A model generated the notes under the pieces. The model was given only the letters and a program-made list of their open reading frames with translations, had not been told where the DNA came from and did not search any database. Shown here piece by piece: positions 46,501 through 60,519 of a stretch of 64,000 bases of DNA (its first letter is position 1; the number at the start of each line of letters is the position of its first letter). The position numbers and the translations under genes are program-made. This DNA comes from Armatimonadota bacterium. Lineage in GTDB: Bacteria > Armatimonadota > Zipacnadia > Zipacnadales > JABUFB01. The stretch covers positions 62,001 to 126,000 of the forward strand of contig JABUFB010000012.1 in the NCBI GenBank assembly GCA_013314775.1, in the 5' to 3' direction.

Positions 46501-46569
46501 TCGCCCGAGGTCCCCTTGCTTGCTGCGCCGAAATGTGTACCACTCTCCGCCCTGGAAGGTGGTGCGCCC

Positions 46570-49500
46570 GTGTCTGCCCTTTCGCTGTTCGCGCTCCTGC
46601 TCGCCGCGCTGTCCCCTTGTTTCGCGCAGTCCCCGGGCAGTCCTCTGCAGCCCCTGGAACCGGATGAAAACACCTGCGTCCTTTACCACTTCGACGAGGG
46701 CGAAGGCGCGGTCCTGCACGATGCCAGCCCGCATGGGAACCACGCCGAGTTGCGCGGGCCCCAGTGGTCGCCGGGGAAGTTCGGCAGCGCGCTGTGGTTC
46801 GACGGCGAGGATGACTGCGTGTTCCGCGAGGTGCCGGAGTCGATCCGAGATCTGAGGCAAATTACTGTGGAGTGCTGGGCGAACCAGGAGCACACGTCGG
46901 GACGGCGGTTCATGGCGGGGCAGGACGTGGGCTTCCACTTCGAACTGGACGACGGTTCAGGCGCCTCGATCTCCCTGTACAACAAGGGCGGCGGAGTGCC
47001 CAATGCGGAGGGCAAACCCCACCAGCAGGTAGCCTCGCAGGTGGGCAGTCTACGGCCCGGGCGCTGGCACCATGTGGCGATTACCTACGATGGGAAGATG
47101 GTGAGCTTCTTCATCAACGGGGTGCTCAAAGCCCGGCATCCCGGCCCGTCGGACTTCTCGCTGGGCGCTCCCTCGCGGGGCCTGTGGCTTGGATGCTATG
47201 TGGGGATGGATTACTGGTTCAGCGGCCTGCTGGACGAGTTCCGGGTCTCCAACTGCGTGCGCTATGACCCCGATAACAAGCTTACAATCGGTGAGAAGGT
47301 GTTTGAGATGCCGGAAGCCGCCGTGCAACTGGTTCGTCCTGCGGCCGCTTTGCGGGAGCCGAAACGCACCGGAGAGGCCACCCTCCGCATGACTCTGCGG
47401 AAGCGCTATGGGGGAAATGCTTCCGGGTGGGTCTACCTAAAGCCGCCGGCGAAGCCCGCGGTGGTTGTGGGCGAGTATGCGCTGAAGAACCTCGCAGACG
47501 GCGCTGAGACTTCGTTGGACATCGACGTGACTGACGAGTTCGCGGGCGATGGCCGATACATCCTTGGACTTGAGCAGGTGGACACCGGGGGGTACTTCGC
47601 ACTAAAGCAAGCAACTCTCAGCGCCAAGGGCGCACCAGTTGCATCCTGGGAGGGCGAGGTGCAGTCACGCCGCACCTTCGGTCCGCCGGTGCTAGCGATT
47701 CTCGGTGTGGGCGCGGATCGCGCGCCGAACTCGGGACGCATCGTGCTTCTGCCCGGCAACGTGGACCGCGTGCAGGGCGCACCGGAGATCGATGCATCTC
47801 GTGCCGACCAGCCGCCCTGCATCGTGGGCGAGGGGCACGTGGAGTGGTGGTTCGACGTGCCAGCGCGGTCGGCATACCGCGTCTATATGCGCTACGCCAG
47901 CTCGGGGTTCCGCCCGTGTGACATCGTGGTGGATGGCGTCGATGTGCACCCCTACCACATGGGCGCGCGCAACAGCACAGGACGCACCATGGCGCAGGAT
48001 GCCTTCTGGGAATACCAGGGAACGGTCACCCTTGATCCGGGCCCACATTGGCTGCGGGTCCAGAATTTCCTGCCGGACATGGTGGCGCTGCGGCTTGATC
48101 CCGTGGCGCAAGTCGGTCCGGCGCGGGTGCCGTGGAACAGGTTCCCGGTGCCCGCGGGAGACTTCCTTTGCAGGGCTTCGGACTGGGACGCACGGGCTGA
48201 TTTCGGAAAGCCGGAGGAACCGTCGGCGAGGCTGGGTCAATCAGGAGATACTTGTGAGTTGCGCTTCGCGACGCGGTTCACCAACACGAATGAAGAAGAT
48301 CTCTTCGCAGGGGACGCCGTGCGCTTCGTTCATGACTGCGCATGGGATCTGGAACCCTTCGGCAGGGTGAGTTTCGAGTTTCGCGGGCAGGGCAGAGGGC
48401 ACGTGGTCTCCCTGTGGCTGATAGACGCCAAGGGCGACGAAAAGCTGTTGTGGCGCAGGCGCGACAACTCAGCCGCCCCACAACAGGTGAACGTCCCCCT
48501 GTCCTTCGAGGGCAACACGGTGTTCGACCCCGGCCGCGTGTCGGCGGTCTGCGTAGTGCTGGACGAGGGCAATATGCGGGCGGAAGAGGTGAACGATTTC
48601 GCGTGCGCGATCATTGCTCCGAAGTTCGAGCGTCGAGATATCATCGCCACACCCGAAGGCTATGCGGCGGCTGTTCTGGCGGCGCGGGAGATGCTGCCTG
48701 ACGTGCCCGCGAGGGGCGCCACGCTGCTTGCTCCGGGATTCCACCCCTGGACGCAGCCTGTTGTGCCCGAAGAGCACCCGCTGTTTGCGATCACCGAGCC
48801 GAAGCCGGTAACACGGGGTGTCCTGGGTTACGATCTGCATTTCACCGGGGCACGTGATATCTCTGCCCCAGCGCTCGACGATTTTCACACCCACTATGAC
48901 TTCGGCGACATCTGCTGGCCGCACATCGGCATATTACCTCAACGCCGGAATTACGCGGACGACGCGGCGTACGCGAAGGCGCTCGGGGACATGGAAGAGC
49001 GGCTGCGCGAGGTGAACCGCCGAAATCTGATCCTGTGGGACATCTGGGGCTATGTGCCCTTCGGCGAAGCAGGCCCGACGCCGCGAGTTGAGCCCGAGCA
49101 CCACCAGGCCCTGCTGCGGGTGTTCGGCGACCGCTTCCTGGGGTACGACAATGGGGAGCAGGACGGACGGTACATCGGGGCCTACGCGGACCGTGGCCCG
49201 CACACCAACCGAAAGGAAGGCTGGGAGGATTTCGTGCGGTGGGACGAGGGCATCTGCAATGACAGCATGAACTTCATGAACGCCACCGGGTCCCTCAACT
49301 TTTCCCATTACTACGGGGAACGCGGCGCGCGCACCCTGGGCCTTGAGACCGCGCAAGGACTCCCCAGCGACACTCTTATGTTCGCGTTCCTGCGCGGCGC
49401 CGGCAAGCAGTACGGTCGGCTTCTGACCCAGGCCACCTCGATCTGGAACCGCTACGGCTACAACATGTACCACGACCGACGCAATGAGAACCCCGGCGGG

Positions 49501-50382
49501 TATGGGCTCGGCCCCAACAAGGGCTGTTCCCTCAGCCTGCACCGGCGCCTGTTCTTCCAGAGCTACTCCGGCGGCGACAGCATCGTGGGCACCGAGACCT
49601 CCCAGTTCACCGCCGACCGCCTGGAAAGCGGGGCGCCGGAACTCAGCCCCCTGGGTGCCCAGCACCTGGCCATCAAGCGATGGGTCGAGGAACACCCGGA
49701 CCGGGGCGTCATGTACACTCCGGTGGCCTTCATGCTGGACTTCTACAACGGCTGGAACATGCCGCGCCACCTCTACCGGGGCGACAAGTACAAGATCTGG
49801 GGCAAGCTGCCGTACGAAAAGGGCGACTACCTTATCGACGGCATGTTCCGGATGGTCTGGCCCGGTTACGAGGACTGCAGTTATCTGCGCAGTGAGCGCG
49901 GCTTCATCACCCCCACACCCTTCGGCGACATCTTTGACGTGCTGAACAACCGCTGCCATCAGGACATCATCCAGCAGTATCAGGCGATCATGCTCCTGGG
50001 TGACGTGGAACTGACGCCTGAGATCACCGCGAAGCTCCGGGCCTTCGTGGAGGCCGGCGGGGACCTGATCACCGACGCGAAGCACGCGCGGCAGTTGCCC
50101 GAGGAACTCACCGGGGTGACTTGCGGCGACGAGCGTAGAGGGGTTCTGTCCAGGCGCACGGACACCGGCGAGGTGTTCGACGAGCACCCCTATACCTACA
50201 GCGTCTTGACGCTCAACGGTGCACAGGCGCTGCTGGTGAATGAGCGGGGGCACGGGTTGGTGACGGTGAACGCGGCAGGTCAGGGCCGGGTGATTGTGGG
50301 CGCGGCGGACTACTGGATGACCGACAGGCTGAATTATGCCGCGCCGGAACTGGTGAACATGGAGCACCTTACACGCTGCTGA
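46570..50382 (+). CDS. Very large secreted LamG-containing protein, interrupted by a frameshift
   Basis: A secreted protein of about 1270 residues before a stop at 50380-50382. GTG 46570 is chosen because GGAAGGTGG lies just upstream and a signal peptide begins there (SALSLFALLLAALSPCFAQ); a TTG at 46516 is in frame. Residues 40-235 form a LamG domain (VLYHFDEGEG, LRPGRWHHVAITYDGKMVSF, GLLDEFRVSN). Beta-sandwich domains follow to about 720. The region from about 770 to 1200 is a barrel-like module with RRNLILWDIWGYVPFGE, CNDSMNFMNATGSLNFSHYY, MYTPVAFMLDFYNGWN and a terminal glutamine-amidotransferase-like segment with LRAFVEAGGDLI. I cannot name its GH family. The stop comes from one missing base near 50367 (see the following entry). 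It lies 69 bases after the beta-lactamase-fold gene. Confidence 0.65.
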   Translation: MSALSLFALLLAALSPCFAQSPGSPLQPLEPDENTCVLYHFDEGEGAVLHDASPHGNHAELRGPQWSPGKFGSALWFDGEDDCVFREVPESIRDLRQITVECWANQEHTSGRRFMAGQDVGFHFELDDGSGASISLYNKGGGVPNAEGKPHQQVASQVGSLRPGRWHHVAITYDGKMVSFFINGVLKARHPGPSDFSLGAPSRGLWLGCYVGMDYWFSGLLDEFRVSNCVRYDPDNKLTIGEKVFEMPEAAVQLVRPAAALREPKRTGEATLRMTLRKRYGGNASGWVYLKPPAKPAVVVGEYALKNLADGAETSLDIDVTDEFAGDGRYILGLEQVDTGGYFALKQATLSAKGAPVASWEGEVQSRRTFGPPVLAILGVGADRAPNSGRIVLLPGNVDRVQGAPEIDASRADQPPCIVGEGHVEWWFDVPARSAYRVYMRYASSGFRPCDIVVDGVDVHPYHMGARNSTGRTMAQDAFWEYQGTVTLDPGPHWLRVQNFLPDMVALRLDPVAQVGPARVPWNRFPVPAGDFLCRASDWDARADFGKPEEPSARLGQSGDTCELRFATRFTNTNEEDLFAGDAVRFVHDCAWDLEPFGRVSFEFRGQGRGHVVSLWLIDAKGDEKLLWRRRDNSAAPQQVNVPLSFEGNTVFDPGRVSAVCVVLDEGNMRAEEVNDFACAIIAPKFERRDIIATPEGYAAAVLAAREMLPDVPARGATLLAPGFHPWTQPVVPEEHPLFAITEPKPVTRGVLGYDLHFTGARDISAPALDDFHTHYDFGDICWPHIGILPQRRNYADDAAYAKALGDMEERLREVNRRNLILWDIWGYVPFGEAGPTPRVEPEHHQALLRVFGDRFLGYDNGEQDGRYIGAYADRGPHTNRKEGWEDFVRWDEGICNDSMNFMNATGSLNFSHYYGERGARTLGLETAQGLPSDTLMFAFLRGAGKQYGRLLTQATSIWNRYGYNMYHDRRNENPGGYGLGPNKGCSLSLHRRLFFQSYSGGDSIVGTETSQFTADRLESGAPELSPLGAQHLAIKRWVEEHPDRGVMYTPVAFMLDFYNGWNMPRHLYRGDKYKIWGKLPYEKGDYLIDGMFRMVWPGYEDCSYLRSERGFITPTPFGDIFDVLNNRCHQDIIQQYQAIMLLGDVELTPEITAKLRAFVEAGGDLITDAKHARQLPEELTGVTCGDERRGVLSRRTDTGEVFDEHPYTYSVLTLNGAQALLVNERGHGLVTVNAAGQGRVIVGAADYWMTDRLNYAAPELVNMEHLTRC

Positions 50383-50814: not shown

Positions 50815-52773
50815 CTACTTCATCTGCGGCAGGATGATCCCGCGCAGAATGATCTTCTGGCAGAACAGGAAGACCAGTAGCACCGGGATTGAGTTCACGA
50901 TGAAGGAGGCCATCACCACGTATGGCGCTCCTGCAAGCGTCTGCGAGAACTGGTAGGTCCACACTGCGATGGTCCAGATCTTCGGGTCCTGGGCCACGAT
51001 GATCGCCCACTCCCACCCATTGTACGCCGCGATGAAGGCGTTCAGCATCCCCACCGCCAGGATCGGTTTGACCAGCGGCAATGAGACCCGGATGAAGATG
51101 AGCCATTCGGGCGCACCGTCGATAGTCGCCGCCTCGTACAGCTCCTGGGGCAGCGAGTCGAAAAACCCCTTGAGCAGAAAGATAGTCATGCCGTTTGCTG
51201 CACCGGGGAGCACCAGGGCGGCGAAGGTGTTGAGCAAGCCGAGGTCGCGCAGAAGCAGGAAGCCGGGGATCGCTGCGACCGCTGCCGGGAAGGCCATGGT
51301 TGCAAGGCAGAAGATGATGATCTTATCTGACCCACGCAGGCGGAACCGGCTCAGGGCATACGCCGCAAGCGGGTTGACGGTAAGCGCGATGAAGACCGCC
51401 AGGCAGACCAGAATCACCGTGTTGCGCACCGCGAGGCCACGGTGGATAAGGTAGTCGATGACCGCCATGTAGTTACCGAAAAGGTTGTCGAGCAGGAAGG
51501 ACCTTTGCTTGTTGTCGAAGGTGACCAGCAGGGCTTGTCCGAAGGGAATGCCGAGCTGCTCAATTGAGGTGAGGTTCAGCCCGTAGGCGGCGTTGATCGC
51601 CGCCAAGCTGCCGTGGCGCTTGAGTGCGAATTTCTGGAAGGCTTGCTCGGGCAGGGTGTCGCGGATGCGCCACTGCTCCACGGGGATGTTGGTGCGCAGG
51701 AAGTCCATCCAGACCCGGCCCAGGGGGCCGTTGGGGACGGTTGGCGTGAGCTTGATGTCCTCCCACTTCGAGACCGGGTCCCAGGTCTGCCCGGTCCCGG
51801 CCAGGACGCGGTTCAGGTAGTCAATGCTGGGGAACCGGTCCTGCAAGAACTTCTGGAACTTCGCCTGTCTGCCGGCAACGCTAATCTCAACGTGACGCAG
51901 AGGGAAGTCGGTCATCAGGAACTGCCGCCACATCGCCACTTGCTCCGCCGGCGCGTCATCAGGCACCGGGAACGGCAAGGCGGCCAGTTGCTCGGGCGTA
52001 AGCGTTTCGTCCTGTTTCGCGACGTAGTCCTCCCAGATGAACCGCAGCGCTGCCGGCCTCAGGTAACCCGCGTATGCGCCTTCACCCTTGAGATATGGGG
52101 TGAAGCGGTTGTCGCGGTAGGCTTTGCGGAACTCCAGCAGGTCCTCGTAGCGCACGTCGAGTTCCGGCGTGTAACTGGCCTGGTCGATGGGCTCGCCGCT
52201 CCATTCGCTGGCGTTCACCTTGGCAAAGTCGTCGATGGACATCTGCCAGGCCTTGTTCAGGTTCTCCAGGGTCTTGTAGCGCGCGCGCAGGAAAGGCGCG
52301 ACATACCGGTTGTCATAGGCCAGGATCGTCTCGCGCAGGTCCCACGTCTCCATGAACTCCGCGTAGTCTCGCGCCGCTGCCTCAAGTTGCTCGCGCTGCT
52401 CAGGATCCTTGAGACGGACAAGCTGCTTCGCGGCCCACGCGTCACTGTTCTCGTGGTCATCGCCGATCTGGCTCCATATGGTCCAGTCCGCGGGCAGGTC
52501 CGGAAAATACGCGCGTACCTGGCGCAATGATGCCCTGTGGGCCGGTGGGAAGTAGGCGCACAGCATGTGCATGAAGCGGTCTTCGACCGACCACAGGTAC
52601 CGGGGCATGGGGTCGCGGCGGTCGTAGTCGAAGCCATTGCTGACCGACCCTGTGAGCATGACCATGAAGGGGTAGACCATGGTTATGCCGCCGATGATCA
52701 AGGCGATGTAAATGCCCATGATCACTGCGCGACCCTTGGGTGTCTTGCGGTCGATATCGTTGATAATTGGCAC
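50815..52773 (-). CDS. MalG-type sugar ABC permease with a large repeat-bearing insertion
   Basis: A 652-residue inner-membrane permease, against about 280 in ordinary MalG-type subunits. TM1 is residues 18-41. The remaining helices start near 447 and carry the EAA loop EAATIDGAPEWLIFIRVSLP (547-566), which docks the ATPase. Between them, about 44-430 is an added, mainly helical region that should face outward. It holds three related units: 138-187 (YAEFMETWDL, FLRARYKTLENLNKAW), 282-337 (WRQFLMTDFP, FLQDRFPSIDYLNRV), and 355-407 (WMDFLRTNIP, FALKRHGSLAAINAAYG). The FLxxRYxSLxxLNxAW pattern is also common in GH42-like glycosidase barrels. It lies three bases after the fused binding-protein/permease gene, so the two form one operon. 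No ATPase gene is in the window; a shared one elsewhere, MsmX-like, is inferred. Confidence 0.85.
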   Translation of the reverse strand: MPIINDIDRKTPKGRAVIMGIYIALIIGGITMVYPFMVMLTGSVSNGFDYDRRDPMPRYLWSVEDRFMHMLCAYFPPAHRASLRQVRAYFPDLPADWTIWSQIGDDHENSDAWAAKQLVRLKDPEQREQLEAAARDYAEFMETWDLRETILAYDNRYVAPFLRARYKTLENLNKAWQMSIDDFAKVNASEWSGEPIDQASYTPELDVRYEDLLEFRKAYRDNRFTPYLKGEGAYAGYLRPAALRFIWEDYVAKQDETLTPEQLAALPFPVPDDAPAEQVAMWRQFLMTDFPLRHVEISVAGRQAKFQKFLQDRFPSIDYLNRVLAGTGQTWDPVSKWEDIKLTPTVPNGPLGRVWMDFLRTNIPVEQWRIRDTLPEQAFQKFALKRHGSLAAINAAYGLNLTSIEQLGIPFGQALLVTFDNKQRSFLLDNLFGNYMAVIDYLIHRGLAVRNTVILVCLAVFIALTVNPLAAYALSRFRLRGSDKIIIFCLATMAFPAAVAAIPGFLLLRDLGLLNTFAALVLPGAANGMTIFLLKGFFDSLPQELYEAATIDGAPEWLIFIRVSLPLVKPILAVGMLNAFIAAYNGWEWAIIVAQDPKIWTIAVWTYQFSQTLAGAPYVVMASFIVNSIPVLLVFLFCQKIILRGIILPQMK

Positions 52774-52776
52774 TCG

Positions 52777-55452
52777 TCAGTCGTCTCCCCTCGCCTGGCG
52801 GAAGTCCACCCGGCGCAGGATGCGAAGCTGCATGTAGGTGAAACCGATAAGGATGCTGCCGAGAATCCAGGCGTACGAGGTGGCCAGCGAAAAACGCATG
52901 TTCACGTACGCCTCCTGCCAGATCGCCATCCCCATGACCATGGTCTCCTTGCCCGGCCCGCCGAAGGTGAGCAGGAAGATGGAGCCCATGGACTGGAACG
53001 TGGCGATGAAAGCCCCCACGAAATTGATGAGCACCAGCGGGGAGATGGTCGGGATGGTGATATGTCGGATGCGGCCGAGGATTGTGGCGCCGTCGAGACT
53101 GGACGCCTCGTAGAGCTCCTCTGGCACGGACTTGAGCGCCGCCAGGTAGATCAGACTGCTGATGCCAGCCGACGCCCAGACGCTGGGGATGATGACGCAG
53201 GCCATGACCGTGTGCGGGTTGCCCAGCCAGTCCACCGGAGGCAGGTCCCACAGGCCGAGTATCGGCGCGAGGACTCGGTTGATCGTGCCCTGCGCAGTCC
53301 CGGCGTACATTTCCTTCCACATAAGAGTGACGACCAGACCCGAGGTCATCTGCGGCAGAAAGAACAGTGTACGGAAGAAGACCTTGAACCGCGGCACCTC
53401 AGTCAGCAGGAACGCCAGGATGATCGGGGTGCAGAACGCCAGGCCAAGGTTCCACAGGACGAAACGGAACGTGGTCAGCAGGTAGTGGTAGAAGTTGGGG
53501 TCAAGCGCGATACTGATGAAATTGCTCAGTCCAACGAACGGCGAATGCCCGACCACCTTGTAGTCCTGGAAAGCCATGACAAGACCACGGGCCAGGGGGT
53601 AGTAGCCCCACAACGCAATGGACGCCAGCGCGGGCAGGAGCATCAACCACGGCAACCAACCCGTATACACGCCCGCCCTGCTCTCCGTCTTGCGTAACTG
53701 GTCGCGCACGATGAGCACGGTGAAAAACGCGAAGAACAGGGCAATGAACCCGGCGATGATCCGCGCCTTCGGGCGGTACTTATCAAGCACTTCGCGAGGG
53801 CGCTCGAACATGATCCCTGTATTCGCGTCGCGCTCCAGGTTTTTCAGGGCGGTCTTGTAGTCGAAGTCCTTCCCGCTTGGGCGCAGGACCAGATCAATGA
53901 TCTCGCGCTGGTAGAAGTCCCGGAATTGAAGCCACTTGCCCATGAAGGGCTCCACGACCTCCAGGATTTCGCCGTTCTCGATCTGCTTCCACATCCGCAG
54001 GTTCTCGGGTGGAATCTCCCGCAGGTAATCCTGAAAGCCGAGACGCTCCAGGTCGCGGGGGTTGAGAAACTTGGCCTGCCCGGCAGCCACCTTGCGGCGG
54101 ATCTCCTCGTCGGAGCCCTCGGGACTGCAGATGCGCCGCATCATCTCCCAGACCAGGTCGCGGTAGGCCTTCCTGTCCTTCTCGGAATGACCGCCGCGGC
54201 GCAGGACGTCCTTGCCGATCATGAAAAAGCTATTGGATGCCTGCAGCACCGGGCGCAACTTGTCGTTCATCGCGGGGAAGGGCATCATGCCCAGGTCATC
54301 CGGCGGGATGCCCAGGTTCTGGAACTCCGTCATGTCCCCCGCCCAGAGCGGGTACATGGCAAGGTCTCGGCCCAGTCGCTTGAGGGTTTCCAGCAGGTTG
54401 GTGGTAGTGACGCCGATGCATCCTTCGATCACGTCGTCTTTCGCGAAGGTCACCCGGCGGCCCTGGAACATGACGAAACCGTTGTCCACATCCTGCTGTG
54501 TCAACTCCACGGGCTCCCCGGATGCCTTGTCCAGAATCCACGGAGCCCAGCGCAGGCGGTGGTAGAAAGCCACGGCGGCGGTGCATTCGGGGCTGGCCAC
54601 ATTGCAGCGCCATTTGGGCTTGGCGGTGGATACATCGTGTCCCTTACTGCAGGTCAGGTCGGTCTCCTGCTCATTGAGGGTAACTATCTCTCCGCAGGTG
54701 GGGCACTTGCGGTCCTGGACGACGATGCTCGAGCCTGTCGTGGCCACCCACGGCGCGAACGCCCAGCTCTGCGAGGTTAGCTCCAGGCCGAAGGTTTTCT
54801 TGACCGGGTCATACAGGAGTCGCACCCAGCGAATGAACTCGTCATAGGTCTTTGGCGGGTTCATCGGATCGAGACCGGCCTTGCGAAGGAGGGTCTTGCT
54901 GTAGAGAATGCCCACGTATGTTCCGCCGCGATTGGGCAAGGCATAGGGCTTGCCGTCCACCGTGACAACCTGGCGGTACAAGGGCTTGATGTTCGCCCAT
55001 TCCGGCCACTTGCTCTCGTCCAAGTCGATAAGGCCGTTGAGATCGGGCTTGCCGTCCTTACCGAGCTTTGGCTTTCCGTTGGCGAGAACCCCGTCTTCGC
55101 CGATCCATTCTACGAGCGGGTATGCAAGACGCTGCTCAACGGCCTGACGTATGTCGGTTTCGAAGATATCCGGACCGATGTTCGCGGCCATAGCCATGGC
55201 CAGGCTTGCCCGGGCGCCCTCGGCGGGCATGCGGATGCCGTCCCACTGCACCAGACGCACATTGGGGTGCTCCGCGAGGAAGTCCCGGATGATCTTGGGC
55301 TGGCGATTCTGGGCGTTGTACCGGGAGGTGACGGAGATTGGGAAGACAGTGTCCTGCGGGCCGGGTTCGCATGACGCGGGACGCAAGGCGCAGAAATTGG
55401 AGATAAGAAGCGCGAGTACGGGCAGACAGCGTCGCAGGCCCAACCTGATCAT
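52777..55452 (-). CDS. Solute-binding protein fused to a MalF-type ABC permease, with zinc-ribbon-like insert
   Basis: An 891-residue two-part protein. A signal sequence (about 1-28) is followed by a family 1 extracellular solute-binding domain (about 35-555) with QPKIIRDFLAEHPNVRLV, PYALPNRGGTYVGILYSK and NPPKTYDEFIRWVR. A linking helix at 565-583 crosses the membrane. It leads into a MalF-type permease core (about 598-875) with the EAA loop ELYEASSLDGATILGRIRHI near 779-798. The binding domain carries an insertion with Cys250, Cys253, Cys268 and His272 (CPTCG and CSKGH knuckles), and also Cys283 and Cys290, a zinc-ribbon-like arrangement. It is the first gene of a two-gene operon. The fusion tethers the binding protein to its channel. 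The ATG at 55452 has only a tightly spaced AAAGG, so a downstream TTG remains possible. Confidence 0.85.
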   Translation of the reverse strand: MIRLGLRRCLPVLALLISNFCALRPASCEPGPQDTVFPISVTSRYNAQNRQPKIIRDFLAEHPNVRLVQWDGIRMPAEGARASLAMAMAANIGPDIFETDIRQAVEQRLAYPLVEWIGEDGVLANGKPKLGKDGKPDLNGLIDLDESKWPEWANIKPLYRQVVTVDGKPYALPNRGGTYVGILYSKTLLRKAGLDPMNPPKTYDEFIRWVRLLYDPVKKTFGLELTSQSWAFAPWVATTGSSIVVQDRKCPTCGEIVTLNEQETDLTCSKGHDVSTAKPKWRCNVASPECTAAVAFYHRLRWAPWILDKASGEPVELTQQDVDNGFVMFQGRRVTFAKDDVIEGCIGVTTTNLLETLKRLGRDLAMYPLWAGDMTEFQNLGIPPDDLGMMPFPAMNDKLRPVLQASNSFFMIGKDVLRRGGHSEKDRKAYRDLVWEMMRRICSPEGSDEEIRRKVAAGQAKFLNPRDLERLGFQDYLREIPPENLRMWKQIENGEILEVVEPFMGKWLQFRDFYQREIIDLVLRPSGKDFDYKTALKNLERDANTGIMFERPREVLDKYRPKARIIAGFIALFFAFFTVLIVRDQLRKTESRAGVYTGWLPWLMLLPALASIALWGYYPLARGLVMAFQDYKVVGHSPFVGLSNFISIALDPNFYHYLLTTFRFVLWNLGLAFCTPIILAFLLTEVPRFKVFFRTLFFLPQMTSGLVVTLMWKEMYAGTAQGTINRVLAPILGLWDLPPVDWLGNPHTVMACVIIPSVWASAGISSLIYLAALKSVPEELYEASSLDGATILGRIRHITIPTISPLVLINFVGAFIATFQSMGSIFLLTFGGPGKETMVMGMAIWQEAYVNMRFSLATSYAWILGSILIGFTYMQLRILRRVDFRQARGDD

Positions 55453-55657
55453 CCTTTGCGGGAAGATGTGAACACGGTCCAGGGCGTTGGTAGTTATCGG
55501 GAGTCCCGGATTCGGTGGCGGAACGAACGCGTCAGGTGTGTTGAGTAGAATATCACACGGCGCGGTCTTTGAAAAGCGCGAGGCAGTCGCAGGTCGGGGG
55601 CCTACTGGCGGTGAATCAGCGCTGTGTGACGCCGAACCCCATCAGTGGAGAGGACCA

Positions 55658-56572
55658 ATGGACTACCCGAGAATCGACGAAGCTTTGCGCCTGAAGAGGC
55701 TCGCCCCTCCGACCGGCCCCGTATCCATGGTGCTGGATACCGACACATACAATGAAGTGGATGACCAGTTCGCCGTCGCCTACGCTCTCCTCGCCCCCGA
55801 GAAGCTGAAAGTTGAGGCGCTTTACGCCGCACCTTTTCACAACAATCGCTCCAGCGGCCCCGAAGACGGGATGGAGAAAAGCTACGATGAGATCATTCGC
55901 ATTCTGGAACGTCTAGGCCGTTCACCGGAAGGGTTCGTATTCCGTGGTTCCCGCAGTTACCTGCCGGGCGCGGATTTGCCCGTGGAAAGTGAGGCCGCAC
56001 GAGACCTGGTAGCGAAAGCGATGGCTTCTGGCGATGAGCCTTTGTATGTACTGGCCATCGGCGCCATCACCAACGTGGCCTCCGCGATCTTGATGGAGCC
56101 CGAGATCATCCAGCATATCGTGGTGGTCTGGCTGGGCGGGCAGCCCCACACGTGGTTCACTGCGAGGGAGTTCAACCTGCAGCAGGATGTGCCCGCTGCA
56201 CGGGTTGTTCTCGATAGCGGGGTCCCCTTCGTGCATATCCCGTGCAAGAATGTGGCCGAACACCTCACCACAACTATAGCGGAGCTTGAGGCCCATGTGG
56301 CCGGACACGGCGCACTTGCGGACTACCTCGTGGACATCGTGCGCGGCTACCACCACGATCATTTCGCGTGGGCAAAGGTGATCTGGGACATCTCCACTGT
56401 GGCGTGGCTCATCGACAGCGCCTGGGTGCCCACGGTGCTCACCCACGCGCCGATTCTCACGGACCAAGTGACCTATTCACTGGATCGCAGCCGGCACCTT
56501 ATGCGTGAGGCGATCCACTGCGACAGGAACGCTATCTTCGGCGATGTGTTTCGGCGACTGCGGCAGGGGTAG
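55658..56572 (+). CDS. Nucleoside hydrolase-family protein
   Basis: A 304-residue cytoplasmic protein of the inosine-uridine nucleoside hydrolase family, which cleaves N-glycosidic bonds of nucleosides. The calcium-site opening DTDTYNEVDDQFAVAYAL is a variant of DTDPGxDDxxAxxxAL. Further matches are YVLAIGAITNVASAI near 125 and the closing YSLDRSRHLM region. Many environmental members with this DTDxxxExDD form have unknown ribosides as substrates. ATG 55658 follows GGAGAGG. It is divergent from the ABC operon, with 205 bases between starts, which must hold both promoters. A hairpin lies after its stop. Confidence 0.8.
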   Translation: MDYPRIDEALRLKRLAPPTGPVSMVLDTDTYNEVDDQFAVAYALLAPEKLKVEALYAAPFHNNRSSGPEDGMEKSYDEIIRILERLGRSPEGFVFRGSRSYLPGADLPVESEAARDLVAKAMASGDEPLYVLAIGAITNVASAILMEPEIIQHIVVVWLGGQPHTWFTAREFNLQQDVPAARVVLDSGVPFVHIPCKNVAEHLTTTIAELEAHVAGHGALADYLVDIVRGYHHDHFAWAKVIWDISTVAWLIDSAWVPTVLTHAPILTDQVTYSLDRSRHLMREAIHCDRNAIFGDVFRRLRQG

Positions 56573-56684: not shown

Positions 56685-58085
56685 CTACTTCCTCGACTCG
56701 GCCTGCAATCGCGCGGCCTGCCCTGGGTCGCCAATGTGCAAGGTGTCGTAGGCCTGCTGCGAGGTCTTGAAGGCCCCCACGCCCTCATGTCCATGCCAGT
56801 CGCCCTGGTGGTGCATGGGGTTGGGCATGCCCGTCTCCTTCTCCCGTTTGGCGATCCACGCTTCCATCCGGCCCTTCAGATGCTCAACCACGTCGGGCAA
56901 CTGGTCAGCGAGATTGCAATTCTCGTCCGGGTCAGTGACCAGATTGTACAGCTCGACCGGCGGTTTGAAGTGGAAGTCCGGCTCGAGAGCCACTATGAGC
57001 TTCCATTCCGGCGTGCGCCAGCCGTGCTTGCGCATCCAGGTGCATTCGGTAATATAGAACTCCGGGTCGTGCGAAGGTACCTCCCCCCGGGCCATGGGCA
57101 GGAGACTCTCGCCGTCGAAGCTGTAATCCGGGACCTCAATGTCGGCCAGGTCCAATATGGTCGGGGTGAGGTCCTTGTGCTGGGCGAAGCCGCTCAATCG
57201 CTGTCCGGCCGGGACCTTGCACGGGTAACGTATCACCAACGGCACGTGCAGTACCGTGTCATAGATACCGTGGTGGTCGAACCAGCACTCGTGGTCATAA
57301 AGCGTCTCGCCGTGGTCGGATGTGATGACCACGATGGTGTTGTCCAGGATGCCCAGGGTCTCCACCGCGGTGAAGATCGTCTGGATCGCCGCATCCATGT
57401 AGGCCACCGCGCCGTCATACTGGGCGATGACGTAGTCCTTGTCCGTGATGCCGGGGGGCATCCAGCTTGCGAAGAAGTCGCAGAAGGGTTTGAAGCTCAT
57501 CACCGGTTCCATGGACTTGTTGGCCGGATCGCACTCGTCGCCATGGTAGAACATGCGCTCATACGGCTCGGGCGGCAGGTACGGGGCATGAGGGTCCATG
57601 TGGCGCAGGAACAGCAGGAAAGGCTCGTCCTGCGCGGCGAGGCGCTTGAGTTCGGGGATGGCCACCTTGTTCAGGTTTTCGGCCTTCGGGCTGCGTCCCT
57701 CGTTCCAGCTTCCCCAGCCGGAGAAGCCGATGTATTTATCGAATCCGCGCGAGGCCGGATTTCCTTCGAACCCCACGGAGGTGGTGTTGTAACCTGCCTC
57801 CTTGCAGATCTCCGCGAGGGTGCGGACTTCCGAACGCATCGGCCCTTTATGGCGCAGGGCCACCACCTGGGTGCTGAAACAGTCCATGCCGGTGAGCATG
57901 GAGCCGTAGCCGCTGGTGGTGGGGATATGCGGGCTGAAGTAGTTCTCCCACAGCGTGCCACCCTCAGCGAAGCGGTCCATGTAGGGGGTGGTCAGGCGCG
58001 GGTAGTTGTAGCAACTCATGTGATCGGCGCGCAGCGAATCAATGCCGATCAGCAGGATATTGGGCTTTCGGCAGCAGCATGACAT
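56685..58085 (-). CDS. Sulfatase-fold hydrolase lacking the formylglycine motif
   Basis: A 466-residue cytoplasmic member of the alkaline phosphatase/sulfatase superfamily. The metal site is visible as NILLIGIDSLRADHMSCY (Asp16) and VVITSDHGETLYDH (Asp/His). In sulfatases the catalytic Cys or Ser lies in C/S-x-P-S-R followed four residues later by TG. Here that place reads TTSGYGSMLTG, residues 56-66, so Thr56 occupies the Cys position and both the Pro and Arg are gone. No formylglycine could form. Thr is the nucleophile in related phosphodiesterases and phosphoethanolamine transferases, so this may be a phosphohydrolase or transferase. ATG 58085 follows AGGAGAG; an upstream ATG at 58142 is less likely. 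It lies 53 bases after the restriction enzyme gene. Confidence 0.8.
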   Translation of the reverse strand: MSCCCRKPNILLIGIDSLRADHMSCYNYPRLTTPYMDRFAEGGTLWENYFSPHIPTTSGYGSMLTGMDCFSTQVVALRHKGPMRSEVRTLAEICKEAGYNTTSVGFEGNPASRGFDKYIGFSGWGSWNEGRSPKAENLNKVAIPELKRLAAQDEPFLLFLRHMDPHAPYLPPEPYERMFYHGDECDPANKSMEPVMSFKPFCDFFASWMPPGITDKDYVIAQYDGAVAYMDAAIQTIFTAVETLGILDNTIVVITSDHGETLYDHECWFDHHGIYDTVLHVPLVIRYPCKVPAGQRLSGFAQHKDLTPTILDLADIEVPDYSFDGESLLPMARGEVPSHDPEFYITECTWMRKHGWRTPEWKLIVALEPDFHFKPPVELYNLVTDPDENCNLADQLPDVVEHLKGRMEAWIAKREKETGMPNPMHHQGDWHGHEGVGAFKTSQQAYDTLHIGDPGQAARLQAESRK

Positions 58086-58138
58086 GTTGTGGTCTCTCCT
58101 ATTGGTGAGCCAGGGCGCAGGGCTCCGCAGGCATAGGT

Positions 58139-58714
58139 TCAACCGTCCGCATCGTGGGCGAACTCCTGGGACGCGTTTGCGACGATCCCTCCGTTCACGC
58201 CCACAACCCAGACGGGGATGGTGACCGCCATCTTCGCGTGTGGCAACTCGCGGACCACTCGCTCAAAGTACACGACGTTTTCATCGATCTGACGTGCGCT
58301 GCACTGCATGGGAACGATTAGCACACCTATCTCAATGTCGTCGGCTGCGTACGAGAGAAGGAACTTGAAGATATCCGTGTACCACCGTGCCATGTTGCCG
58401 AACTGGACCTCGATCTGGATCGGACCCTTCTTGAAGTCCGCGACCAGTCGCGATTCAGACTGTGACACTATGCGTGGATGCCGCTCCCAGCCTCTCTGCT
58501 CAAACTCTCGGTCGAACTCGCGGTTAGTGGCAGCCTGGTTGATGCTAAGCATGGCGACCTGTCTACCGTCACGAACGCGCGGAGTGGGGCCTTTTGGGGA
58601 TGCTTGCCACTGGACGGTGGCGATGACGTCAGTTATCTCCTGCATCTCCTGCGCGAACTCGTGCAGAAGGATCGCTTCGGCGTGCCTGTAGCTATAGGTG
58701 GCGGCAACCTTCAT
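58139..58714 (-). CDS. Type II restriction endonuclease, BglII/BstYI family
   Basis: A 191-residue endonuclease. The active site shows Asp93, then eight residues, then Glu102-Val-Gln104 in IEVQFGN, the same D-x8-E-x-Q spacing as in BglII (Asp84, Glu93, Gln95). MARWYTDIFKFLLSY after it matches the family's dimer and DNA-contact helix. BstYI/BglII enzymes cut RGATCY or AGATCT; the exact site here is not readable from the sequence. Its ATG overlaps the methylase stop as ATGA (58711-58714), so translation is coupled and the methylase comes first, as expected for safe establishment. The pair stands out from the sugar genes on both sides and was probably acquired by transfer. Confidence 0.85.
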   Translation of the reverse strand: MKVAATYSYRHAEAILLHEFAQEMQEITDVIATVQWQASPKGPTPRVRDGRQVAMLSINQAATNREFDREFEQRGWERHPRIVSQSESRLVADFKKGPIQIEVQFGNMARWYTDIFKFLLSYAADDIEIGVLIVPMQCSARQIDENVVYFERVVRELPHAKMAVTIPVWVVGVNGGIVANASQEFAHDADG

Positions 58715-59610
58715 CGGTCGTGCCCCCCGTTGGGCAGAGACGGGTTGTACACCGGCATGTCGAGTGGGCGGTACGGGACTGTGCCCGCAATCGCCTCCGC
58801 TATTCGCTGCCGCGCAATCTCCAAGTACTCCGCGACTGTATCGGCGCCAGCTGCTCTCCGCCCACGCATTACGGCGGCAACTGCGGACGTACCAGCACCG
58901 AGATAGGGGTCCACCACGAGATCACCCGGCCTTGTCAGGCTCAGAACCAGACGCTCAACAAGCGCAATCGGATACTGGCACGGGTGTGCGGTCTTCTCGC
59001 GATGGTTCGCCTTGACGTTAGGGATGATCCAGAGATCGCCAGGGTTCTTACCTTTGGGGTTGCAGGAGAGGGCCCCGGCTTTCGGGCCCTTGAAGTGCTT
59101 CTTCGACTGGTATTTCTGGGGAACGCGCACGGCATCCAAATCGAAGTAGTAGGCGTCTGACTTCGTGAACCAAAGGATGACCTCGTACCTGCCCGAGAAG
59201 CGCTTCGTGCAATGAAGACCGTGCTCGAAATGCCAGACCACGCGGTTCCGCAGCTTCAGCCCATGCTGCACAAACGTTGGGTACAGCAGAATGTCGAGTG
59301 GCGCGATCTCGCCGTTCTCAACGTAGTTGCCAACTTGCCAGCAGATGCTCCCGTCTTCCGCGCAGATGCGGACCGCTTCCGCGATAGTCCGAGACTGCAT
59401 CTCAATGTACGCGTCGACTGAGTTTTTCCGTTCGTACTCCTTGCCAAGGTTGTAAGGCGGGGACGTGACAATGAGGGAAGCCGCCCCATCGGGTATCTGT
59501 CCAAGTAGCGCCAGGCAGTCACCATGGTATAGCGTCACCGTAGCGTCGTGACGGTACTCCGATGAGACCTGCAGTTCGTGCGCTGCCAGTCGCAGCGTCT
59601 CAGACGGCAT
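58711..59610 (-). CDS. Type II DNA methyltransferase paired with the BglII-like enzyme
   Basis: A 299-residue amino-methyltransferase. Motif IV is TSPPYNLG (residues 49-56) and motif I is VVDPYLGAGTSAVAAVM near 240, so the order is IV before I, as in beta-class enzymes. The middle carries target-recognition candidates such as HCTKRFSGRYEVILWFTK. The likely product is N4-methylcytosine, since M.BglII-type partners use that base, but N6-adenine cannot be excluded. ATG 59610 follows a GGAGGGGG ribosome site; an in-frame ATG at 59679 is weaker. It precedes and overlaps the endonuclease gene by four bases. Confidence 0.85.
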   Translation of the reverse strand: MPSETLRLAAHELQVSSEYRHDATVTLYHGDCLALLGQIPDGAASLIVTSPPYNLGKEYERKNSVDAYIEMQSRTIAEAVRICAEDGSICWQVGNYVENGEIAPLDILLYPTFVQHGLKLRNRVVWHFEHGLHCTKRFSGRYEVILWFTKSDAYYFDLDAVRVPQKYQSKKHFKGPKAGALSCNPKGKNPGDLWIIPNVKANHREKTAHPCQYPIALVERLVLSLTRPGDLVVDPYLGAGTSAVAAVMRGRRAAGADTVAEYLEIARQRIAEAIAGTVPYRPLDMPVYNPSLPNGGHDR

Positions 59611-59721
59611 TGGGCTTCCCCCTCCTTCTTCGTGCGTCTCGTGGCCCAGAAGGTACCATGGGCCGCGACGTCTTGTCAAACAGGCGTTCCACAGGTTCTG
59701 TGCGCCAATGCACGGGCGGGA

Positions 59722-60519
59722 TTACCTCGCGCCGCAGGCCTGGAGACATGCCTGCATGTGCCCGCGGGCCTCCGCGGCGATTACTGCGCACCAGTCCGCC
59801 GGGTAATCCTTCGCGCCGATGACCTCCAGATTCAGCGGCCCGTTGTAGCCGTTCTCATGCAGCACGCGGATATATCCCACCAGATCGATGTCGCCACGAC
59901 CGTTGGCCTGCAGTTCCGCCGGTCCGGGGCCCTGCTGGCGGCCCTTGCAGTCGCGGATGTGCACATGCTTGACCCGGGAGATCACTGCCGCGATGGCTTC
60001 CACCGGGTTTTCGCCCGACCGGTAGATGTGGGATGGGTCCATGTCGATGCCGAAATGCGGCGAGGAAATCGCCTCCATCGCGCGCAGAGTGGTGGGAGTG
60101 TTGTAGATGCAGGCACCCACGTGGGCTTTGACGCAGAGAGTGAGTCCGTAGGTGCCGGCGCGGTCCGCGAGGGTCCCCAGGGAATCGATGGTCTCCTGCA
60201 AGCTCTCCTCATCATCGGTCTTCCCGCCGGGACCGCAATTGACGATGGGGATGCCGATCTCTGCTGCGGCCTGGAAAGCGGTCTCCATGATCGCCGGATC
60301 GCGGGATGGCTGCTCCATGGCCAAGAGCTCAAGACCATACTCGGCGGACAGCCGCTTCACCTCCGGCGCGATCTCCTGCCAGCGGCTCAGAACCAGGTGC
60401 TCACTCATACCGTCGATCGCTGACAATTCGATGCCATCGTAGCCGGCCATTGCGATGTACTTGAAGGCCGTCTCCATGGAATGGCCGCCGAACAAGACTG
60501 AATTGGCGCCAAGCTTCAT
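59722..60519 (-). CDS. Sugar phosphate isomerase/epimerase (AP endonuclease 2-like TIM barrel)
   Basis: A 265-residue cytoplasmic TIM-barrel protein of the xylose isomerase-like family. The landmarks are GYDGIELSAI near 27-36, GLELLAMEQPS, KAHVGACIYNTP with metal-binding His, FGIDMDPSHI (Asp/His pair) and HVHIRDCKGR, followed by GPLNLEVIG supplying the final Glu. Members isomerise or epimerise keto- and aldose-sugars or related polyols. The substrate is not specified by sequence. It is flanked on the minus strand by the restriction system and a six-hairpin protein. The gap of 267 bases upstream contains nothing I can support. Confidence 0.85.
   Translation of the reverse strand: MKLGANSVLFGGHSMETAFKYIAMAGYDGIELSAIDGMSEHLVLSRWQEIAPEVKRLSAEYGLELLAMEQPSRDPAIMETAFQAAAEIGIPIVNCGPGGKTDDEESLQETIDSLGTLADRAGTYGLTLCVKAHVGACIYNTPTTLRAMEAISSPHFGIDMDPSHIYRSGENPVEAIAAVISRVKHVHIRDCKGRQQGPGPAELQANGRGDIDLVGYIRVLHENGYNGPLNLEVIGAKDYPADWCAVIAAEARGHMQACLQACGAR

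Follow-up and report, generated by a model that had tools for sequence, protein, structure and literature searches.

In the textbook type I sugar importer, the binding protein comes and goes. OpuA and GlnPQ belong to other importer families than the CUT1-type importer considered here. Both are described as having a binding domain that is joined covalently to the membrane domain (PMC8025302, PMC11065425). In Escherichia coli, free MalE meets MalFGK2, with the P2 loop of MalF around MalE and the scoop loop of MalG directed towards maltose (PMC8134467). The locus that we analyzed lies in a window of 64,000 nucleotides from an Armatimonadota genome (contig JABUFB010000012.1 of assembly GCA_013314775.1) and shares with the E. 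coli system a MalG-type membrane domain with an EAA loop. However, residue 459 of its permease aligns with residue 95 of E. coli MalG, leaving ~364 extra residues in the permease that E. coli MalG does not have. In addition, MalE is free in the periplasm of E. coli, and the large periplasmic element there is the P2 loop of MalF, while here it is the first periplasmic loop (P1) of MalG. Like OpuA and GlnPQ, the partner of this permease carries its binding and membrane domains in one chain, but here the fusion is to MalF by way of an extra transmembrane helix and stands alongside a repeat array in MalG. The ingredients, a binding-domain fusion and a sub-element of GH42 enzymes, are known, and their combination is a variant of the type I sugar importer that we have not found described. 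The literature search, with most subscription journals outside its reach, returned no published account of a MalG with such a loop or of the pair. The permease and its parts are as follows.

50815-52773, minus strand: MalG-type permease with an expanded first periplasmic loop (P0001), 652 aa, GTG start, PF00528, nearest NCBIfam models UgpE/MalG
52651-52722, minus strand: permease TM1, residues 18-41 (14-44 by hydropathy; AlphaFold2 helix 12-43)
51484-52644, minus strand: extracytoplasmic insert, permease residues 44-430, with no transmembrane segment and pLDDT mostly 85-97
50818-51435, minus strand: MalG-type transmembrane domain, residues 447-652, PF00528, best PDB matches AlgM2, SugB and MalG
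51076-51135, minus strand: EAA coupling loop (EAATIDGA...), residues ~547-566, which contacts the ATPase in this family and contains invariant residues

An ABC importer membrane domain makes up the C-terminal 200 residues. PF00528 (BPD_transp_1) matches residues 486-645 with an E-value of 4.7e-15 and 56.2 bits, against a cut-off of 26.4, and residues E547, D552, G553, and A554 of the EAA coupling loop are invariant among 60 relatives of the permease. AlgM2, MalG, and SugB are its closest solved relatives both by sequence and by fold, and a fold search with the full model gave matches dominated by ABC permeases. The equivalog models for MalG and UgpE in NCBIfam score 78 and 79.2 bits, below their cut-offs of 261 and 297, and by these profile scores the permease is a member of the superfamily but neither a MalG nor a UgpE equivalog.

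The position given in the earlier note for the insert of ~390 residues, residues 44-430 at 51484-52644, was confirmed. The insert follows TM1 (14-44) and precedes the next hydrophobic helix (445-475), and with MalG topology it faces outward. Within the insert the best 19-residue Kyte-Doolittle value is 1.09, and no stretch resembles a transmembrane segment. Structure prediction of the permease alone with AlphaFold2 and 60 aligned sequences gave a mean pLDDT of 89 and a pTM of 0.84. The closest named relative is from an Armatimonadota metagenome-assembled genome (MAG), with 94% identity, and most of the relatives come from MAGs. Comparison with this relative at 94% identity gave a dN/dS of 0.073 for the insert and 0.009 for the membrane domain. 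Judged by these substitution rates, the insert is a functional part of the protein under purifying selection that evolves faster than the membrane domain. Its GC3 is like that of the membrane part (0.850 and 0.845, respectively). An origin as a frameshift, assembly, or composition artefact is ruled out by GC3, the dN/dS of 0.07, and ~100 intact relatives.

The insert is built from repeats. The earlier note recognized three of them, all of which are real, but the count was too low, and the insert comprises five units of ~60-90 aa.

52360-52602, minus strand: repeat unit R1, residues 58-138, degenerate in the orthologue group of the window's protein
52078-52359, minus strand: repeat unit R2, residues 139-232, with a sub-threshold Pfam GH42 match at 161-180
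51886-52077, minus strand: repeat unit R3, residues 233-296, hhalign probability 98% with R4
51670-51885, minus strand: repeat unit R4, residues 297-368, the most typical, matched by the repeat HMM at 303-370 (4.5e-18)
51478-51669, minus strand: repeat unit R5, residues 369-432, matched by the repeat HMM at 376-422 (6.8e-13)

In the window's protein alone, unit pairs 1-2, 1-3, and 2-3 score 31, 37, and 54, compared to shuffle means of ~21, and these scores were reached by 24, 2, and 0 of 1000 shuffles, respectively. Profile comparisons were made with slices of an alignment with 26 phylum-mates (A1) and with an alignment weighted to the orthologue group of the window's protein (A2). In A1, hhalign gave probabilities of 77-99% for all ten unit pairs, and in 60 column shuffles of each pair the observed score was never reached. 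Units 2-5 match one another at 95-99% in profile-profile comparison, and R3-R5 still do so at 96-98% in A2, while the matches of R1 to the other units fall from 77-96% in A1 to 0-19% in A2. An iterated repeat HMM, with the consensus EAAYQKFLRKRYGSLEALNRAYGTDYASFEEVPLPAPEPADPPLRALWREFVRTALPLRLLRI, detected three to five units per protein in all of 103 family members. In the AlphaFold2 model each unit has a helix-helix-loop-helix fold that ends in a short strand, and the final helix of R5 (411-443) runs towards TM2. The aromatic-xx-F-x3-T motif that had been read as the opener of each unit is in fact the dWxxF helix that closes it, and its threonine is not conserved. The Armatimonadota family f21 has a shorter insert in which one to three units are detectable. 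This variation, together with the near loss of R1 in the window's orthologue group, indicates that the exact geometry of the array is not strictly constrained. Units that occupy the same position resemble one another more closely across proteins than the units of a single protein do among themselves, which shows that the array is old and rules out recent tandem duplication.

The earlier suggestion that the units are reminiscent of GH42-like barrels was right, and can be refined to the helical excursion after β4, known as subdomain H, of GH42 and related barrels. In a search of all PDB chains, a profile built from 61 units matched residues 156-218 of 1KWG, the Thermus A4 GH42 β-galactosidase, with an E-value of 1e-8, followed by other GH42 enzymes, β-1,2-glucosyltransferase, GH14 β-amylases, and GH50 agarases. 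The reversed profile, from 30 of the units, matched nothing in the PDB below an E-value of 0.6. Against the GH42 proteins of the window's own genome, the unit profile gave an hhalign probability of 98.1% and an E-value of 8.9e-14, versus 0.1% for the reversed control, and the homologous segment in these proteins begins ~14 residues past a conserved glutamate. From this position, the unit appears to overlap subdomain H, which follows β4 and the catalytic glutamate. Profile search found single units in ~30 other long reading frames of the genome. Ten of these were scanned, of which nine are GH42 or GH14 proteins; several units per protein occur in the three long MalG paralogues only. One single-unit protein of 730 aa (L126:973-3162) matches no Pfam family at an E-value of 0.001 and is possibly an undescribed GH-A-like barrel.

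Pfam gives only sub-threshold or fragmentary GH42 and GH14 matches to the insert, the GH42 match covering just 20 residues with 20.1 bits against a threshold of 21, and fragmentary 'GH42' calls made in permeases by automatic annotation need correcting. The only PDB sequence match of the insert alone, to an endosialidase (E 0.13), was rejected because its alignment does not contain the unit motif. AlphaFold2 modelling of the insert alone with a four-sequence alignment gave a pLDDT of 52.8 and was confident in R3-R5 only. A fold search with this model placed GH14, GH42, and GH50 enzymes in the top ranks with no significant E-value, the GH14 matches having an rmsd of 0.4-0.6 over ~30 residues. 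These ranks are consistent with the sequence result and are not independent proof of it.

The units of the permease share with subdomain H of 1KWG the helix-helix-loop-helix segment. However, 1KWG has one copy inside a catalytic (β/α)8 barrel, whereas the permease has about five tandem copies, no barrel, and no acid/base glutamate. The insert is predicted to consist of helical repeats with very short strands, with no (β/α)8 barrel; the acid/base glutamate at the end of β4 is absent from the matched segment, and the β7 region that holds the nucleophile glutamate is unmatched. With no catalytic part, the insert is ruled out as a glycosidase. In BiBga42A, Trp-200 and Phe-221 from the neighbouring subunit touch the sugar (PMC10688820). 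By count, W182 of 1KWG corresponds to W200 of BiBga42A and falls within the five-residue tip 'afwsq', which is an insertion relative to the permease unit profile and is missing from the permease units. Therefore, the permease has retained the scaffold of the element without its sugar-contacting tip or the catalytic barrel. The GH148 split-barrel glucanase EngU likewise elaborates a GH-A barrel at the β4/α4 position (PMC5725463), but in EngU a carbohydrate-binding module is inserted into an enzyme, whereas here an element of an enzyme is inserted into a transporter.

The gene that ends 3 bases upstream of the permease start encodes the partner.

52777-55452, minus strand: binding-protein-MalF fusion (P0002), 891 aa, SBP_bac_1 at 54-240 and PF00528 at 678-878
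53773-55350, minus strand: binding-protein part of the fusion, residues ~35-560, from Pfam
53695-53772, minus strand: extra transmembrane helix of the fusion, residues 561-586, before MalF TM1, with a hydropathy peak of 2.52

Through the extra helix the chain recrosses the membrane ahead of TM1 of MalF. The ~300 residues that follow it in the MalF part leave no room for a P2-like domain. Within the binding protein, residues 250-272 form a zinc-ribbon-like hairpin (CPTC...CSKGH), the sequence of which is kept with loss of the cysteines in most orthologues of the fusion (SPTTG...APDTGED), while a few distant ones have four cysteines. Two paralogous fusions from the same genome (L009:1-2770 and L010:1-2790) have extra hydrophobic, transmembrane-like stretches of ~100-200 residues inserted in the MalF part, and at two other loci (L058 and L093) the fusion is seemingly split near the boundary of binding protein and permease, possibly by gene fission or a frameshift.

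A search for the same insertion in other genomes showed that it is widespread among Armatimonadota and reaches into several PVC lineages. The architecture also occurs in Lentisphaeria/Victivallales, Kiritimatiellae, other Verrucomicrobiota, Planctomycetota, and one Firestonebacteria record, and Oligosphaera ethanolica DSM 24202 (Lentisphaeria/Victivallales) is a cultured carrier. We counted as a long MalG any reading frame of at least 480 aa, and as a fusion any matching MalF-type frame of at least 760 aa. Pfam domain content was determined for the window's partner, and other fusions were called by their similarity to it and by frame length. Frame lengths take in untranslated upstream codons. 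The window's genome has three long MalGs and, to match them, three long partners with frames of 954, 1004, and 1093 aa; the other permeases of the family detected in this genome have 282-435 aa.

The pairing of the expanded MalG with the fused binding protein, which the earlier note had raised as a possibility, is strongly supported by co-occurrence and is near-obligate. Both genes are present in 84 and neither in 105 of 201 genomes from the phylum, compared to 12 with one alone (seven with the long MalG and five with the fusion; Fisher p 2e-41, with phylogeny not corrected for). In four of the five fusion-only genomes, and in several of the seven MalG-only genomes, a copy is truncated by the end of a contig. 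The fusion is present in all 12 named genomes with the expanded MalG that were tested, Kiritimatiellae included. It is directly upstream of the long MalG in 36 of 80 named loci. In Kiritimatiellae the long MalG stands alone, with the fusion elsewhere in each genome tested, and many f21 genomes also carry the pair at distant sites. That the two genes co-occur even where they are unlinked speaks for functional dependence and not just for common descent of an operon. A tethered binding protein and a large repeat domain in MalG are two linked departures from the textbook plan that travel together across phyla and have gone unrecognized by domain databases.

On balance, we lean towards the interpretation that the MalG array docks the tethered binding protein in a distinct CUT1-type sugar importer. 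Together, the two genes specify the core membrane subunits of a predicted MalFG-like sugar ABC importer of the CUT1 type. In it the binding protein is attached covalently to MalF through the added transmembrane helix, and the first periplasmic loop of MalG has grown into about five helical units homologous to GH42 subdomain H. The array would most likely be an extracytoplasmic cradle in which the tethered binding protein docks and is positioned or restrained above the translocation pore, a role like that of the MalF P2 loop around maltose-binding protein in E. coli. The anatomy, the homology of the unit, its conservation, and the partnership are established by the analysis, while the docking role, the sugar, and the ATPase are inferred. 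No ATPase gene was found among the scanned neighbours of the permease gene, and ATP hydrolysis would be supplied by a MalK/MsmX-type ATPase encoded elsewhere. In a mirror-tree analysis, evolutionary rates of the binding protein correlated with those of the insert (partial r 0.33) and with those of the MalG membrane domain (0.45). The correlation of the insert is no stronger than that of the membrane domain, so this test is positive but does not single out the insert. The loosely constrained geometry of the array and the seemingly split partner at L058 and L093 also weigh against docking. As a tentative history, a fragment of a glycoside hydrolase barrel may have entered the permease loop, been amplified in tandem, and become a dedicated receptor for the tethered binding protein.

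Should docking of the binding protein prove to be its function, the array would offer a natural experiment on the contribution of docking to transport, as well as a clear instance of part of an enzyme being put to new use as an interaction repeat. The receptor interpretation, if true, would also define a subfamily of type I importers across Armatimonadota and several PVC lineages that couples substrate capture to the pore in its own way.

Of the docking or glycan-handling module proposed earlier, the repeat-built extracytoplasmic module stands and docking is the probable function, while glycan handling has little support with no barrel, glutamate, or tryptophan tip. The array could nevertheless be a carbohydrate-binding module whose units bind oligo- or polysaccharide in the periplasm and feed the binding protein, as suggested by the derivation of the unit from glycoside hydrolases, the richness of the insert in aromatic residues (13 Trp, 17 Tyr, and 22 Phe in 387 residues), and the sulfatase, LamG-domain protein, and xylose-isomerase-like protein that adjoin the transporter. 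We consider this unlikely, as the substrate-contacting tip of GH42 and the catalytic apparatus are both missing from the permease units and the conserved dWxxF, LNxaxG, and xP positions look fold-keeping. That the array docks another envelope protein, such as a glycosidase, an outer-membrane porin complex, or a cell-wall structure, and so holds the importer beside polysaccharide-degrading machinery, seems quite improbable: many GH42-type proteins of the same genome bear the unit, and since such units contribute to trimer contacts in GH42 enzymes (PMC5725463) a hetero-association between like units is conceivable, but the genomic correlate that was found is the binding-protein-MalF fusion, and no consistent neighbouring enzyme was seen. 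A passive spacer or stability element with no specific partner would fit the differing number of units among lineages and the faster divergence of the insert (mean distance 2.09, compared to 0.48 for the membrane part), but is very doubtful given its low dN/dS, its retention across several phyla, and its near-strict co-occurrence with the fusion.

Around the transporter genes are a nucleoside-hydrolase-like protein (55487-56572, plus strand), a sulfatase (56685-58142, minus strand), and a xylose-isomerase-like protein (59722-60519, minus strand), neighbours that suggest a region for polysaccharide use. Convergent with the transporter gene, 46516-50382 on the plus strand encodes a protein of 1288 aa in which an N-terminal LamG domain is the only confident Pfam match. 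A compact restriction-modification pair, comprising a BglII-type endonuclease (PF09195) and an N4/N6 DNA methylase (PF01555), occupies 58139-59679 on the minus strand.
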